Assembly: GCF_000233695.2 (NCBI RefSeq) | Contig: NZ_CM001488.1 | Span: 78,549-142,548, forward strand | DNA from: Desulfobacter postgatei 2ac9 | Lineage (GTDB): Bacteria; Desulfobacterota; Desulfobacteria; Desulfobacterales; Desulfobacteraceae | Direction of reading: 5' to 3' | Length of the DNA: 64,000 bases | Part shown: piece after piece, positions 56,814-64,000 of the stretch | How the letters are laid out: every line of letters starts with the position of its first letter | Numbering within the stretch: position 1 is the stretch's first letter | Notes under the pieces: generated by a model | What the model was told of the DNA's origin: nothing | The model's input: only the letters and a program-made list of their open reading frames with translations | Database searches by the model: none | Made by a program: the position numbers and the translations under genes

Positions 56814-59162
56814 ATGGGTTCTTCCGGTATCGCGGCAAAAAAGATTGAAATTTCAGGGGTGGTCCAGGGTGTTGGATTCCGCCCTTTTTTATTTGGTTTA
56901 GCCTGCGCGCACCATCTTTGCGGCCATGTGTCCAATACTGATTTTGGTGTAGCGATTTTTATCCAGGGTGCGCCAAAGGATTTGGATGCGTTTATTTTGG
57001 ATGTCTTGGAAAAAAAACCGCTGCTGTCGCAGATTTCAGACATGGTATCAACGGATACACAGCCTTTGGAGCTGACTGATTTTAAGATTGTTAAAAGCCG
57101 GGATACCCAGACCAGATCTGCCTTGATCTCCCCGGATGTGGGGGTGTGCCCCGATTGCCTCAAAGAGATGCAGGATCCCGCTGACCGCCGGTTTGAATAC
57201 CCTTTTATCAATTGCACCAATTGCGGGCCAAGATACACCATCATCCGGGATATTCCCTATGACCGGCCAAAAACCGCCATGAAATCCTTTGCCATGTGCC
57301 CGGACTGCCGGAAAGAATATGAAGATCCATTAAACCGGCGGTTCCATGCCCAACCCAATGCCTGCCCGGTTTGCGGTCCCCAGGTGTTTTTGCTCGACAA
57401 TAAGGGAAAACAGGTGGACGGGAAGAACCCGGCACAGGCCATGGCACTTGCAGCCCAGTTTCTCAGGCAGGGAAAAATTGTTGCGGTCAAGGGGCTGGGC
57501 GGGTTTCACCTGGCTGTGGATGCCGCCAATGAGACGGCTGTTGAACGGCTGCGCCAAAGAAAAAAACGCCCCCATAAACCCTTTGCCTTGATGGCGGCCT
57601 GGGATTCTTCCCTGTTTCACCATGTTTGCATGGATGGGGATGAAAAAGCGCTGCTTTTATCCTATCAGCGGCCCGTTGTATTGTTGAAAAAAAAGGCCTT
57701 GTCCAAATCCGTGAGCACGGGTCCGGCCCCGAATCTGGCCCCGGACAATCGTTGTCTTGGTATCATGCTGCCCTATACACCGCTGCACTATCTGCTTTTG
57801 GAGAAGGGACCCGATATTCTGGTCATGACCTCGGGGAACCGGTCCGGCGAGCCCTTGTCCATTGACAATGCACATGCGCTGGATGCCTTTTCCCATATTG
57901 CCGACTATTTTCTGCTCCACAACCGGGATATATACTTTAGGGCCGATGACTCCATTGCCAAAATTCAGCAGGGTAAGGTGCGGTTTCTGCGCAGATCCAG
58001 GGGATATGCCCCCCTGCCTGTGGATATCACACCGCCTGTAAAAGACGGGTTTGCCAATATCCTTGGCTGCGGGGCGGGTATGAAATCCACCATCTGTCTG
58101 ACCAGGGACCGCTACGCCTTTTTAAGCCCGCACATCGGAGATCTGGAATCGGTGCAGGTCCATAATTTTTATAGCGCCACCATTGAACATATGCAAAAAA
58201 TCCTGGATATCCGGTCGATGTGTGTGGCCCATGACCTGCATCCGGGATATTTTTCCACCCGGTTCGCCAAAATGCTTAGCTGTCAGGGTCTGCCCCTGAT
58301 AGGGGTTCAGCACCACCACGCCCATGCCCTTTCCTGCATGGCGGAAAATCATCTGGACGGCAAGGTGCTTGCCCTGACCCTGGACGGCACCGGCCTGGGG
58401 ACGGACGGTCACATCTGGGGTGGTGAAGTCCTGGCCTGCACCTATGAGGGGTTTGAGCGCCGGGCCCGGCTCAATTACCTGCCCATGCCCGGAGGGGATG
58501 CGGCGGTGATGGAACCCTGGCGCATGGCGGCGTCCCTGTTATATAAGGTATATGGGTCAGGAATAATGGATCTGGATATCCCCTTTGTCCGGTCTCTTAA
58601 TACATCCAAGCTTGCATTTTTAATTCAGATGATGAAACAACAGGTGAACAGTCCGATGACATCCAGCACAGGACGTTTGTTCGATGCCGTATCCGCCCTT
58701 TTGATGCTCTGCCACAAAATCTCCTATGACAGCCAGGCAGCCATTGCCCTGGAGGCGGCTGCAGATTTTGAAGACTGCCGAACGGCGGCGTATCCCTTTG
58801 ACATGAAAACCGGGGCTGACGGCTGCCTTATTATCAATTCCGGGCTATGGGTACGACAGATGGTAACCGATATCAAACGTGGTGTGCCCCGGGGCCGGAT
58901 TGCGGCCCGGTTTCATCTGACCCTGGCCGGCATGATGGTGGATGCGGCCGTGAAGGTTGCTCAGGAAACCGGACTTGACCGGGTGGTTCTGTCCGGCGGG
59001 GTGTTTAACAATGATACGATTTTTTCCCACATAACCCGTATGCTTAAAACCAAGGGCTTTAAGGTATATACCCACAGTATTGTTCCCTGCGGCGATGGCG
59101 GTATTGCCCTGGGTCAGGCCATGGCGGCCGGGGCCCTTCAAGGCAAAATGAATGGAATTTAA
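56814..59162 (+). CDS. hypF: Carbamoyltransferase HypF
   Basis: 782 residues in the usual domain order: acylphosphatase (GVVQGVGFRPF, near residue 13), two zinc fingers (CPDCLKEM...CTNC and CPDCRKEY...CPVC, residues 108-185), YrdC-like domain (about 200-390) and a Kae1-like domain with HHHAH (about residue 502). Makes the cyanide ligand precursor from carbamoyl phosphate. Confidence 0.96.
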   Translation: MGSSGIAAKKIEISGVVQGVGFRPFLFGLACAHHLCGHVSNTDFGVAIFIQGAPKDLDAFILDVLEKKPLLSQISDMVSTDTQPLELTDFKIVKSRDTQTRSALISPDVGVCPDCLKEMQDPADRRFEYPFINCTNCGPRYTIIRDIPYDRPKTAMKSFAMCPDCRKEYEDPLNRRFHAQPNACPVCGPQVFLLDNKGKQVDGKNPAQAMALAAQFLRQGKIVAVKGLGGFHLAVDAANETAVERLRQRKKRPHKPFALMAAWDSSLFHHVCMDGDEKALLLSYQRPVVLLKKKALSKSVSTGPAPNLAPDNRCLGIMLPYTPLHYLLLEKGPDILVMTSGNRSGEPLSIDNAHALDAFSHIADYFLLHNRDIYFRADDSIAKIQQGKVRFLRRSRGYAPLPVDITPPVKDGFANILGCGAGMKSTICLTRDRYAFLSPHIGDLESVQVHNFYSATIEHMQKILDIRSMCVAHDLHPGYFSTRFAKMLSCQGLPLIGVQHHHAHALSCMAENHLDGKVLALTLDGTGLGTDGHIWGGEVLACTYEGFERRARLNYLPMPGGDAAVMEPWRMAASLLYKVYGSGIMDLDIPFVRSLNTSKLAFLIQMMKQQVNSPMTSSTGRLFDAVSALLMLCHKISYDSQAAIALEAAADFEDCRTAAYPFDMKTGADGCLIINSGLWVRQMVTDIKRGVPRGRIAARFHLTLAGMMVDAAVKVAQETGLDRVVLSGGVFNNDTIFSHITRMLKTKGFKVYTHSIVPCGDGGIALGQAMAAGALQGKMNGI

Positions 59163-59171
59163 AGGTCTTTC

Positions 59172-60260
59172 ATGAGTTTGACATATAATCAGGAATTCAA
59201 AGATCCTGAACTTTCAAAGGCCCTGGTGGCCCGTATCCGTGAAAAAAGCGCCCGCCCGTTGCGGATAATGGAAGTGTGCGGCACCCATACCATGGCCATT
59301 TTTCGCTACGGTATCCGCTCTGTACTGCCCGACACCATTACCCTTTTGTCAGGCCCCGGCTGTCCCGTGTGCGTAACCGCCCAAAAGGACATTGACGCCT
59401 ATGTAATGCTGGCACGCAGGCCTGATGTGATCCTGACCACCTTCGGTGATCTGATGAAGGTGCCGGGATCCGGGTCCAGCCTTGCTGCGGAAAAAGCCAA
59501 GGGTGCCGATGTCCGGATGGTCTATTCCATTTTTGATGCCCTGTCCGTGGCAAAGGAAAATCCGGACAAAGAGATAGTATTTTGCGCAGTGGGTTTTGAG
59601 ACCACCATTCCGACCATTGCAGGGGGAATACTCACAGCCAAAGCCCAGGGGATAAATAATTTCAGCGTTTATAGCGCAAACAAGCTGACTCCGCCGGCAT
59701 TAGCCGCGCTCATGGAGACCGACGGCGTGGAGATAGACGGATTTATTCTGCCCGGGCACGTATCAGTGATCACAGGGCCTGACGCATTTGCCCCGAGCTT
59801 TGAAAAATACCGGATACCTGCGGTGGTTACAGGATTTGAACCTGTGGATATCCTTAAGGCATTACTCATGCTGGTGGAACAAAATGCCTCCCAAGCACCC
59901 AGGCTGGTAAATGCCTATCCCCGGGCCGTGGCTGATGCCGGGAACCCCAAAGCCCGGGCAATCATGGATCAGGTGTTTGAAAAAGCCGACGCCCTCTGGC
60001 GGGGGATTGGCAATATTCCGGATTCAGGCATGGTGCTGAGAGACTTGTTTCATGAAGTTGACGCTGCCAGAAAATTTGATATCTCGATTCCGGATACCCC
60101 GGAGCCGGCCGGGTGCGACTGCGGCCAAATTTTAATGGGACTGAAACGACCGGACCAGTGCCGACTGTATAAAAAAGCCTGTACCCCCATCCACCCTGTG
60201 GGCCCCTGCATGGTCTCCAGTGAAGGGGCCTGTGCGGCTTTTTATAAATACAGCAGATAA
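59172..60260 (+). CDS. hypD: Hydrogenase maturation protein HypD
   Basis: 362 residues. MEVCGTHTMAIFRYGIRSVLP, GPGCPVCVT (redox Cys pair), GFETTIPT, and the C-terminal Fe-S cysteines (CDCGQILMGLKRPDQC...C). Scaffold for Fe(CN)2CO assembly with HypC. Confidence 0.96.
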   Translation: MSLTYNQEFKDPELSKALVARIREKSARPLRIMEVCGTHTMAIFRYGIRSVLPDTITLLSGPGCPVCVTAQKDIDAYVMLARRPDVILTTFGDLMKVPGSGSSLAAEKAKGADVRMVYSIFDALSVAKENPDKEIVFCAVGFETTIPTIAGGILTAKAQGINNFSVYSANKLTPPALAALMETDGVEIDGFILPGHVSVITGPDAFAPSFEKYRIPAVVTGFEPVDILKALLMLVEQNASQAPRLVNAYPRAVADAGNPKARAIMDQVFEKADALWRGIGNIPDSGMVLRDLFHEVDAARKFDISIPDTPEPAGCDCGQILMGLKRPDQCRLYKKACTPIHPVGPCMVSSEGACAAFYKYSR

Positions 60261-60277
60261 GATACAAGGAACATACC

Positions 60278-61291
60278 ATGAACGATAATGATACAATCCT
60301 TCTGGACCACGGTGCCGGGGGCAAGGTTTCCCATGCCATGTTTTCGGAATTGATTTTGCCTTTGTTCGATAACGGACTATTGGCGAAACAGGACGATGGC
60401 GCAATTTTTGAAGTACCCGCGGGGAAGCTCGCTTTTTCAACGGATTCCTATACTGTGGACCCCATCTTTTTTCCCGGCGGGGATATTGGTGAACTTGCCG
60501 TGAACGGTACTGTCAATGATGTAGCCATGTGCGGGGCAACCCCCTTATATATATCAGTCGGGCTTATCATTGAAGAAGGCATGAAGATTTCCGACCTTAA
60601 ACGCATCCTTCAATCCATGGCCGGGGCTGCCAAAAAGGCGGGGGTCCGGATAGTCACAGGCGACACCAAAGTGGTGCCCCGGGGAAAGGTTGATAAAATA
60701 TTCATTAACACCTCCGGGATCGGCCTTATTCCGGCCGGGGTCAATGTCTCGGGTGACAGGGCGCGACCCGGCGATAAAGTGATTGTTTCAGGTACAATTG
60801 CCGATCATGGCGTCACCATATTGAGCGAACGCGAAGGGCTAAAATTTGATTCAGATATAAAAAGCGATTCTGCACCCTTAAACCACATGGTCAAAGCGGT
60901 GCTGGAATCAGGCTGTTCGGTTCACGTGCTGCGGGACCCCACCCGTGGAGGCGTTGGTACAACATTGAACGAAATTGCCGTCCAGTCAAAGGTGGGCATC
61001 CAGCTTTTTGAGGACCGTCTGCCGGTGCGCGGTCCGGTCCGGGGCATTTGCGAGTTTTTAGGGTTTGACCCCCTCTACCTGGCCAATGAGGGCAAGCTCA
61101 TCGCCATTGTACCTGGAGCGGATGCCAAGAAGGTGTTGGATATTATTCGCCGGGATGAATTCGGCAAAGAGGCTGTGATTGTCGGAGAGGTTACAGATCA
61201 GGACCCCGGCCGGGTGGTGTTGGAAACGCTTATCGGCGGCACCCGGATTGTGGATATGCTAACCGGCGAACAGCTGCCCCGGATCTGCTGA
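60278..61291 (+). CDS. hypE: Hydrogenase maturation protein HypE
   Basis: 337 residues of the PurM/ThiL fold: LLDHGAGGKVSHAM at the N terminus, STDSYTVDPIFFPGGDIG, and the C-terminal PRIC, whose Cys carries the thiocarboxamide made with HypF. Ends the hyp operon. 17 bp after hypD. Confidence 0.97.
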   Translation: MNDNDTILLDHGAGGKVSHAMFSELILPLFDNGLLAKQDDGAIFEVPAGKLAFSTDSYTVDPIFFPGGDIGELAVNGTVNDVAMCGATPLYISVGLIIEEGMKISDLKRILQSMAGAAKKAGVRIVTGDTKVVPRGKVDKIFINTSGIGLIPAGVNVSGDRARPGDKVIVSGTIADHGVTILSEREGLKFDSDIKSDSAPLNHMVKAVLESGCSVHVLRDPTRGGVGTTLNEIAVQSKVGIQLFEDRLPVRGPVRGICEFLGFDPLYLANEGKLIAIVPGADAKKVLDIIRRDEFGKEAVIVGEVTDQDPGRVVLETLIGGTRIVDMLTGEQLPRIC

Positions 61292-61407: not shown

Positions 61408-61770
61408 ATGAAACAAGAAGATTTGGATTATTTTAAAGCGTTGTTAACTGAACGGCTCAATGAGTTGCTTTCCCATGCCGACACAACCGTTACAGACATG
61501 ACCCAGCCCAAGGAGAACTTTGCTGATCCTACGGACCGGGCCTCCCATGAGGCGGACAGAACTTTTGAACTGCGCATCCGGGACCGGGAACACAAACTGA
61601 TTAAAAAAATCAAAAAGGCCTTAGAGCGAATTGAAAACGGTACATTCGGCCAGTGCGAAAGCTGCGAGGAGGAAATTTCCATAGAACGCCTCAAAGCCCG
61701 GCCGGTGACAACCCAGTGCATCACCTGCAAAACCCGTGAAGAGAACATGGAGAAGGCTCTGGGAATTTAA
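61408..61770 (+). CDS. dksA: DksA/TraR-type transcription factor
   Basis: 120 residues. N-terminal coiled coil (tip motif around DRASHEADRTFELRIRDRE), and a C4 zinc finger CESCEEEI...CITC near residues 85-109. Binds the RNA polymerase secondary channel with ppGpp. AGAAGGA precedes ATG. 28 bp upstream of the PHP-RNase III gene, so co-transcription is probable. Confidence 0.93.
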   Translation: MKQEDLDYFKALLTERLNELLSHADTTVTDMTQPKENFADPTDRASHEADRTFELRIRDREHKLIKKIKKALERIENGTFGQCESCEEEISIERLKARPVTTQCITCKTREENMEKALGI

Positions 61771-61798: not shown

Positions 61799-63358
61799 TT
61801 GATCGATCTTCACACACATTCAACTGCCTCGGACGGGTCTCTGACGCCCAGACAGATCCTTGATTTGGCCAGAGACACCGGCATTGAGGCACTTGCGTTG
61901 ACTGACCACGATACCGTTGCCGGAATTCTGGAAATAAAAGATATTGTTCATTCATATCCGGTTGAATTTATCACCGGTGTTGAAATTTCGTGTTCTCCTC
62001 CGCCTGAGTTCAAATCCCTTGGCAGCATTCATATGCTTGGATATGGATTTTCCGTTTATGACTGTGGGTTGAACGAGGCACTGACTCGTGCGGCAGAGGC
62101 CAGGGCCAAGCGGAATCCCAAAATCATTAAAAAACTTAATGCATTGGGATTTGACATTACCCTGGACGAGGTGGAAAGTCGTTTTGGCGCCAGCCAGACA
62201 GGCCGCCCCCACATTGCCGAACTGCTTGTGGAAAAAGGCTATGTCTCTGATTTTCGCCAGGCCTTTGATCTTTACCTGGGTAAAAACAAACCCGCCTATG
62301 TTGATAAATTTAAAATATCCTGCAAAGAAGCGATCCGGCTGATTCTTGATGCCGGTGGTCTGCCGGTTCTGGCCCATCCGGGAATCATTGATTTTCAACG
62401 TCCCCATGATCTGGATACCTTTGTGAATCTGCTGGTCGCGGAGGGACTTGAAGGCATTGAAGTCTATTATTCAGGACATGACTCAGCCCTGCGACAACAT
62501 CTGTCTGAAATTGTACACAGTAAAGGACTGGTGGCTACGGGAGGGTCTGATTTCCATGGCAGTTTCAATAAAGGGGTGGATCTGGGCCGGGGCAGAGGCA
62601 ATTTGAATATAGCCATGTCCGTGTTCAAAACATTGAACGAACGAGTACTGGAAGTCCAGTCCGTTCCCCGTCTGGATCTGCTGGAACAAAACCTTGATTA
62701 CCGATTTAAGTCCCGGGCCTTTTTATCCAACGCCCTGTGTCATCGCTCCTATCTTAATGAAAATCAGAATACCTGCGATACGGATAATGAGCGCCTTGAG
62801 TTCCTCGGCGATGCCGTGCTAGGGGTATGTGTGGGGCATCTGCTTATGGAAAGCGATCCTTTAAAAAAGGAAGGTGACCTTTCCCGGCTGCGCTCAAATC
62901 TTGTCAGTGAAACAGGACTGGCGAACATTGCCCGCAGGATTGATTTGGGCCGCTTTATTAAGCTGGGTAAGGGAGAATCTCTTTCAGGGGGCAGTGACAA
63001 AAATTCGATTCTGTCAGATGCCTTTGAGGCTGTGGTTGCAGCGGTGTACTTGGATGCCGGATTTGAAAGAGCACAAACCATGGTGAACCGTCTTTTTCAA
63101 GAACCCGTGCAGCAGGTTCTGGCCTCATCTGATTTCATTGATTATAAAAGCGGTCTCCAGGAATTTACCCAGGAGCATTTTGGCAAAACCCCGGATTATG
63201 CCCTTGCAAAAGAGAAGGGTCCTGACCATGACAAAACGTTTGAGATCTGCCTGAATCTGGATTCGATTTCCACCATGGGTACTGGTAAAACCAAGAAAGC
63301 TGCTGAACAGGATGCCGCCAAAAAAGCGCTGGCTATTTTGAACCGCAATTTTGATTAA
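61799..63358 (+). CDS. rnc: Fusion of a PHP phosphoesterase/exonuclease domain with RNase III
   Basis: 519 residues in one uninterrupted frame from TTG 61799; an in-frame TAG at 61781 and no upstream ATG or GTG fix the start. Residues 1-280 are a PHP domain of the TrpH/RNase AM type: IDLHTHSTASDG (His5, His7), TDHD, GVEISC, AHPGI and GGSDFHG. Residues 292-430 are the RNase III domain: ERLEFLGDAVLG (Glu331, Glu334, Asp338) and SDAFEA (Asp407, Glu410). Residues ~445-516 are a dsRBD (DYKSGLQEFTQEHFG; KKAAEQDAAKKAL). All catalytic residues are present in both halves. RNase AM trims rRNA 5' ends and RNase III cuts rRNA precursors, so one polypeptide may do both. Confidence 0.93.
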   Translation: MIDLHTHSTASDGSLTPRQILDLARDTGIEALALTDHDTVAGILEIKDIVHSYPVEFITGVEISCSPPPEFKSLGSIHMLGYGFSVYDCGLNEALTRAAEARAKRNPKIIKKLNALGFDITLDEVESRFGASQTGRPHIAELLVEKGYVSDFRQAFDLYLGKNKPAYVDKFKISCKEAIRLILDAGGLPVLAHPGIIDFQRPHDLDTFVNLLVAEGLEGIEVYYSGHDSALRQHLSEIVHSKGLVATGGSDFHGSFNKGVDLGRGRGNLNIAMSVFKTLNERVLEVQSVPRLDLLEQNLDYRFKSRAFLSNALCHRSYLNENQNTCDTDNERLEFLGDAVLGVCVGHLLMESDPLKKEGDLSRLRSNLVSETGLANIARRIDLGRFIKLGKGESLSGGSDKNSILSDAFEAVVAAVYLDAGFERAQTMVNRLFQEPVQQVLASSDFIDYKSGLQEFTQEHFGKTPDYALAKEKGPDHDKTFEICLNLDSISTMGTGKTKKAAEQDAAKKALAILNRNFD

Positions 63359-63364
63359 GCCTTT

Positions 63365-64000
63365 ATGTCCCCGCCCCTGGTAATCCCTTTTTTTATTCCC
63401 CACCAAGGATGCCCCCATTTATGCGTATTTTGTAACCAACGCCTGATCGCAAAACAGACGTCCGAAACGCAGAAGTTTGACAATGAGACCGAACGTCTGT
63501 CAGATGCTATCCATACCTATCTTCAGTTTAAAAAAAATCGTTCCCGAGTGGAATTGGCTTTTTTCGGCGGCAATTTTCTTGGGCTGGAAAAAGCCAGAAT
63601 CCTTACACTGCTTAAGGCGGTACAGCCATGGATCCGGCAGGGCCAAATCCATGCCATTCGCTGCTCCACACGTCCGGATACTATCACTCGCCAGGTTATA
63701 GATCTTGCCCGGCCACTTGGCCTTGAAACCGTAGAACTGGGTGTCCAGTCCATGGATGATCAAGTACTTGCCCTGGCCGAAAGGGGGCACACAAGTGAGG
63801 ATACCCGCAAAGCCCTGGCCCTGCTTAAGGAAAATGGCCTTAAAACCGGGGTGCAGGTGATGGTTGGACTGCCCGGCGATAACGATTGCGGTGCTGTACG
63901 TACAGCAAAGGAACTATCGGAACTTAAACCGGATCTTGCTAGGATATACCCTCTGTTGGTACTGAATGGTTCCAGGCTTGCCCAATGGTACCGGTCCGGA
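63365..64000 (+). CDS. Radical SAM protein (Elp3/HemN-like), cut by the window end
   Basis: Starts ATG 63365 and stays open to 64000 (212 codons seen). Cluster motif CPHLCVFC (C-x3-C-x2-C, residues 16-23), AFFGGNFLGLE for the GGE position, RCSTRPDTI, VELGVQSMDDQVL and GLKTGVQVMVGLPGD, as in the Elp3/COG1243-like group. It follows the PHP-RNase III stop by 6 bp and is probably in its operon. Confidence 0.85.
   Translation, partial: MSPPLVIPFFIPHQGCPHLCVFCNQRLIAKQTSETQKFDNETERLSDAIHTYLQFKKNRSRVELAFFGGNFLGLEKARILTLLKAVQPWIRQGQIHAIRCSTRPDTITRQVIDLARPLGLETVELGVQSMDDQVLALAERGHTSEDTRKALALLKENGLKTGVQVMVGLPGDNDCGAVRTAKELSELKPDLARIYPLLVLNGSRLAQWYRSG

Follow-up and report, generated by a model that had tools for sequence, protein, structure and literature searches.

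A gene joining a PHP nuclease of the RNase AM/TrpH type to RNase III in Desulfobacter postgatei and its relatives

Within the 64,000-nucleotide stretch of the Desulfobacter postgatei 2ac9 genome analysed here (the window; contig NZ_CM001488.1, positions 78,549 to 142,548), a single gene at 61799..63358 on the forward strand encodes a PHP nuclease half of the RNase AM/TrpH type followed by a complete RNase III with its double-stranded RNA-binding domain (dsRBD). Both halves belong to known families, and the architecture itself was not seen in the literature searched, where no report of a PHP-RNase III fusion was found, most subscription journals being outside the coverage of the search. In this family of sulfate-reducing bacteria, the joining of the two neighbouring genes hints at a coupling of RNA cutting and end-trimming in one protein.

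The gene is one open reading frame of 519 amino acids plus a stop, with a TTG start, and the same fused frame is found in relatives. A preliminary description of this DNA had placed PHP and RNase III domains in one gene, and the Pfam and NCBIfam matches bear this out in the order that it gave, with the Pfam domains PHP at residues 3-139, Ribonucleas_3_3 at 308-432, Ribonuclease_3 at 331-421 and dsrm at 449-514. The PHP half (residues 1 to about 270; 61799..62608, forward strand) includes an inserted helical part that bears the phosphate-pocket arginines. Its best NCBI models are NF041577 (nucleoside bisphosphate phosphatase; residues 2-265, 182 bits) and NF047791 (RNase RNM, which is RNase AM; residues 2-264, 162.9 bits), the former scoring slightly above the latter and both falling below their cut-offs of 400 and 375 bits, respectively. 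A linker region recognised by junction comparison (about residues 271-292; 62609..62674, forward strand) leads to the RNase III half (residues 295-512; 62681..63334, forward strand), which passes the curated cut-off of TIGR02191 (238.8 versus 166.25 bits), and the dsRNA-binding domain (residues 449-514; 63143..63340, forward strand) matches Pfam dsrm (PF00035) with 55 bits against a cut-off of 23. An AlphaFold model of the single chain (mean pLDDT 66.1, pTM 0.37, residues 249-289 below 50) was too poor to show anything on how the halves sit and was left unused.

Metal and catalytic residues are intact in both halves when these are aligned with the E. coli enzymes, in agreement with the preliminary description. 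Conservation was followed in a set of 105 loci (49 fused and 56 unfused), with one locus per genome that has both halves. Residues E334, D338, D407 and E410 align with E41, D45, D114 and E117 of E. coli RNase III, which we take to be its four acidic catalytic residues, and are kept in all 49 fused rows. For the PHP half, H5, H7, D12, D36, H37, E62, H78, R102 and R105 are kept in all 48 fused rows covering them, R136, F156, H193, D251 and H253 in 49 of 49, and H138 in 48 of 49. The listed PHP residues are likewise kept in all 56 unfused rows, together with E334, D338 and E410, whereas D407 is kept in only 35 of them. At this last position (window 63017-63019, equivalent to D114 of E. coli), the other 21 unfused rows have N or G and all 49 fused rows have D; D407 may go with fusion, with only two independent pairs on well-supported branches.

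In PMC9410882, E. coli RNase AM is described as an exoribonuclease that works processively in the 5'-3' direction and has a metal site and a 5'-phosphate pocket, the residues of which are named there, and the alignment places both sets of residues in the PHP half of the window's gene. These residues are not specific, as six other aligned PHP proteins keep them, four with Lys for the third Arg; on this alignment, the metal and pocket residues are not enough to identify a protein as RNase AM. Relatives of the PHP half with solved structures are 9etk, 2yb1, 3e0f and 7ug9, the last of which is entitled 5'-3' exoribonuclease. The match to 2yb1 covers residues 2-281 at an E-value of 3.4e-33, and this structure is CV1693 of Chromobacterium violaceum, as named in PMC9410882. 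An alternative is that the PHP half serves chiefly as a 3',5'-nucleoside bisphosphate (pNp) phosphatase, or as a short-oligonucleotide scavenger of the end products of RNA decay, with no role in rRNA maturation. This reading draws on the higher score with the phosphatase model (both models being below cut-off) and on 2yb1, as we take CV1693 to be a pAp phosphatase; however, the families overlap, the phosphatase model giving 287.9 bits even for E. coli RNase AM, and six DHH-domain proteins are already present in the genome, and we consider it distinctly unlikely.

In agreement with the preliminary description, no stop separates the domains, and the only internal starts in this gene are weak ones, TTG at residue 269 (four matching ribosome-site bases) and ATG at residue 273 (none), both lying within the end of the PHP half. 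An ATG near the start of rnc, anywhere between 18 codons ahead of residue 293 and 6 codons beyond it, is found in 55 of the 56 unfused loci; the window's family (Desulfobacteraceae) has one in 8 of its 33 loci and the other fused loci in 7 of 16; such an ATG has at least four matching ribosome-site bases in 22, one and one of these loci, respectively. The old rnc ATG is gone from most loci of the window's family, and in the other fused loci, 7 of 16 of which have such an ATG, free RNase III may be made from an internal start. Among 14 genes of the genus, pN/pS is 0.32 for the linker (residues 266-296) versus 0.13 for the PHP and for the RNase III domain, and linker substitutions fall most often on third codon positions, a pattern by which the linker is relaxed but evolves as coding sequence. 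The order (Desulfobacterales) has many unfused pairs that are adjacent and in the same frame, and a missed stop or a frameshift might have joined two such genes in assembly, but the junction is open in many independent assemblies, single-contig genomes among them, and substitution across it is of the coding type, so that an artefact of this sort is extremely improbable. An assembly error is contradicted by full-length fused relatives without a junction stop, and as these occur in many assemblies, neither a frameshift nor a chimeric read explains the fusion.

The start of the fused gene was readable in 32 of 33 same-family loci, the remaining one being cut by a contig end, and is TTG in 28, GTG in four and ATG in none. 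A scan found no ribosome site at normal spacing before TTG 61799, the sole site-like stretch lying very close to the TTG. The weak TTG/GTG start is kept across the window's family and possibly holds expression low.

A search of relatives for the same PHP-RNase III-dsRBD order had been proposed, and the fusion is present in 45 of 47 genomes of the window's family, including the own genome. The count includes two fusions seen only as cut by contig ends (G008 and G040) and four genes that match in two pieces around an insert, with the open frame confirmed for G019 and G031 and the fusion in G037 and G046 assumed from a similar two-piece pattern. Eight genomes (G020, G022, G023, G025, G028, G032, G033 and G038) were counted as fused from tabulated matches alone, and the sole stop counted in G021 is the gene's own end. 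Named fused loci belong to Desulfobacter latus, D. vibrioformis, D. postgatei and Candidatus Desulfobacula maris, to which the window's fused protein is up to 89% identical. The two exceptions are G024 (70% complete), where only a distant PHP was found, and G029 (88% complete), which has dksA, a free rnc encoding 233 amino acids and the radical SAM gene with PHP absent between them (L054 1629-3789). The RNase III of G029 is placed inside the family clade (100/100), beside genus g2 (93/66), and this locus likely represents a natural deletion of the PHP half.

The genes on either side of the fusion are dksA (61408..61770, forward strand; TIGR02420 141.8 bits, cut-off 115.5) and, downstream, a radical SAM gene that runs off the window (63365..64000, forward strand; Pfam Radical_SAM). 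Further upstream, three open reading frames at 56814-61291 resemble, from their translations, the hydrogenase maturation genes hypF, hypD and hypE. The position next to dksA was correctly described, but dksA lies directly upstream in 102 of the 105 loci (two of the others are cut by contig ends and one has it at 423 bases), so that this linkage is an order-wide trait that is not special to the fusion. The radical SAM gene is downstream in 100 of the 105 loci, with four not seen and one cut. Across the loci compared, the dksA-PHP-rnc-radical SAM cluster marks the order.

The junction between dksA and the PHP gene could be read in 68 loci outside the window's family, and 42 of these (for instance L041, L089 and L104) have no canonical PHP start after the dksA stop; the sole in-frame start in these loci is inside the end of dksA and in nearly every case is the TTG of its C-TTG-G codons. 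At this place Leu is encoded by CTT in 41 of the 42 loci, versus 15 of 26 loci with other starts; in the window's family CTT is found in 8 of the 27 loci that could be read. Four further loci in this survey had no recognisable dksA end. The overlap of dksA and PHP suggests coupled translation of the two genes.

A sample of 69 genomes from the class, every one belonging to the window's order, includes 64 in which PHP and rnc are either fused or next to each other on the same strand; among the remaining five, three have both halves apart and two showed one half only, although in one of the latter (G153) the contig ends in a cut rnc that lies behind PHP. These 64 linked pairs comprise 17 fused and 47 unfused ones, the unfused pairs showing no excess of the same frame (16, versus 16 and 15 in the other two frames); for these counts G131 and G149 were checked to be unfused and G031 and G019 to be one frame, and G037 was treated by analogy. 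Beyond the order, a search of 66 genomes from the phylum at E-values up to 1e-25 gave matches in 65 and both halves in 40, and in none of the 40 are the halves within 5 kb, as they lie on different contigs in 31 and at least 127 kb apart on the same contig in nine. In an order sample, 73 of 291 genomes had a joint match at E <=1e-95, which is a lower bound because split matches miss the threshold; 30 of the 73 were without an internal stop, 14 of them in the window's family and 16 in eight other families (16 confirmed). In a phylum sample, 4 of 395 gave joint matches at E <=1e-90, all in the window's order and three without a stop. One scan reaching outside the phylum had 13 loci neither fused nor in tandem, each with one half only.

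The set of 105 loci omits duplicates of the own gene (L034, L035), the named loci L060-L072 (L071 and L072 are unfused pairs, and some of the others duplicate genomes that the set already contains), G040, the fusion of which is cut by contig ends, G029, one-half loci and later-added stretches; because it was picked largely at E <=1e-95, favouring same-frame pairs, its fused share is not a frequency. The fused label needs 10 changes on the joint tree of these loci, of which well-supported branches force only two, and 11 changes each on the separate PHP and RNase III trees, counts that do not tell gain from loss. A single clade of all fused rows was rejected (p-AU 0.0008). By these trees, fusion of the two neighbouring genes evolved more than once. 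Many unfused pairs have a single in-frame stop between PHP and rnc, and such junctions show how a fusion can be gained.

A serious alternative, though on the unlikely side, is that the fusion is neutral, a same-frame pair in a fixed dksA-PHP-rnc cluster having joined by loss of a stop, with halves that tolerate tethering, act independently and share only their expression. The lack of frame preference among unfused adjacent pairs, the many pairs that are one in-frame stop from fusion, the relative that dropped its PHP half (G029) and the fact that most of the order manages unfused all fit such an origin. However, the linkage extends through the order and is seen in none of the 40 genomes outside it that have both halves, nearly all genomes of the window's family retain the fusion, and both active sites were kept afterwards.

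The own genome is a single contig of 3.97 Mb, listed as 100% complete. A TIGR02191 search of it found no second RNase III, the fused gene being the sole match, and the check for a separate rnc proposed in the preliminary description thereby came out in its favour. The check for a separate trpH/yciV, proposed with it, did not, as a second, more distant TrpH-type PHP gene is present (G000:C1:2259108-2259941; L059 1991-2920), encoding 309 amino acids with 34% identity, Ile in place of the stacking Phe of RNase AM and a best NCBI score of 102.8 bits. One RNase J, two RNase E/G proteins and six DHH-domain proteins, some of which are possibly nanoRNases, also score above cut-offs, and given these and the second PHP gene the PHP half is not the sole candidate 5'-end enzyme.

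With linkage throughout the order and more than one fusion, the simplest functional reading is that the halves act in turn on the same RNAs. We give even chances to the gene product being a bifunctional RNA-maturation enzyme of this kind, with endonuclease and 5'-exonuclease activities, and its target would probably be pre-rRNA. In the mechanism proposed, the RNase III half would dimerise and, together with its dsRBDs, cut pre-rRNA in double-stranded stems as well as other dsRNA. The ends that RNase III leaves carry a 5'-phosphate, and from these new 5'-monophosphate ends the tethered PHP half would trim the RNA in the 5'-to-3' direction, tethering being expected to make the trimmer locally more concentrated where RNase III has just cut; the model for this sequence of events is RNase III followed by RNase AM on the E. 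coli 23S precursor. Counted for the enzyme reading are the fusion in 45 of 47 family genomes, the status as sole RNase III, the order-wide linkage, the rejection of a single fused clade (p-AU 0.0008), the residues kept in both halves, the loss of the rnc ATG in most members of the window's family, the coding nature of the linker and the processive 5'-3' activity of RNase AM, which has this metal site and pocket. Counted against it are the score of the PHP half, which at 162.9 bits falls far short of the RNase AM cut-off of 375, the occurrence of the pocket in other PHP proteins, the presence of RNase J and two RNase E/G proteins, the absence of the PHP half in G029 and the 47 of 64 linked pairs that are unfused. 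A more specific form of the proposal remains rather doubtful, namely a hard-wired endo-then-exo ribonuclease in which RNase III 5'-phosphate ends would pass directly to the PHP exonuclease of the same dimer, and which would give the Desulfobacter family its sole RNase III and a main trimmer of its rRNA 5' ends, having arisen several times independently out of a single old dksA-linked cluster.

E. coli makes RNase III and RNase AM as separate proteins, from genes that lie far apart, and a pair that is linked throughout an order and has undergone more than one fusion provides genomic evidence, independent of the work in E. coli, for a possible shared pathway. The fusion offers a single protein in which the handover from endonuclease to 5' exonuclease can be tested, and a functional lead for TrpH-type PHP proteins outside E. 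coli.

Compared with known systems, the C-terminal half of the window's protein is like E. coli RNase III (Rnc; b2567) in its catalytic residues and in having a nuclease domain plus dsRBD, with 33% identity; however, E. coli rnc encodes a free protein of 226 amino acids and adjoins era and lepB, whereas the RNase III of the window bears about 290 extra N-terminal residues with the PHP nuclease. E. coli RNase AM (Rnm, YciV, TrpH; b1266) is 30% identical over the aligned part of the PHP half, its metal residues D20, E72, D255 and H257 corresponding to D12, E62, D251 and H253 of the window and its pocket residues R107, R110, R141 and F161 to R102, R105, R136 and F156. Unlike the PHP half, it is free-standing, with its gene adjoining yciO, and it passes the NF047791 cut-off with 505.9 bits. 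The nucleoside bisphosphate phosphatase CV1693 has no RNase III attached, and the window's PHP half misses the cut-off of the NF041577 model. The unfused PHP-rnc pairs of the order's other families have the same PHP active-site residues as the fused gene and, in nearly all 56 loci, the same dksA-PHP-rnc-radical SAM order as the window, but they encode two proteins, with at least one stop between them and, in all but one locus, an ATG near the start of rnc.
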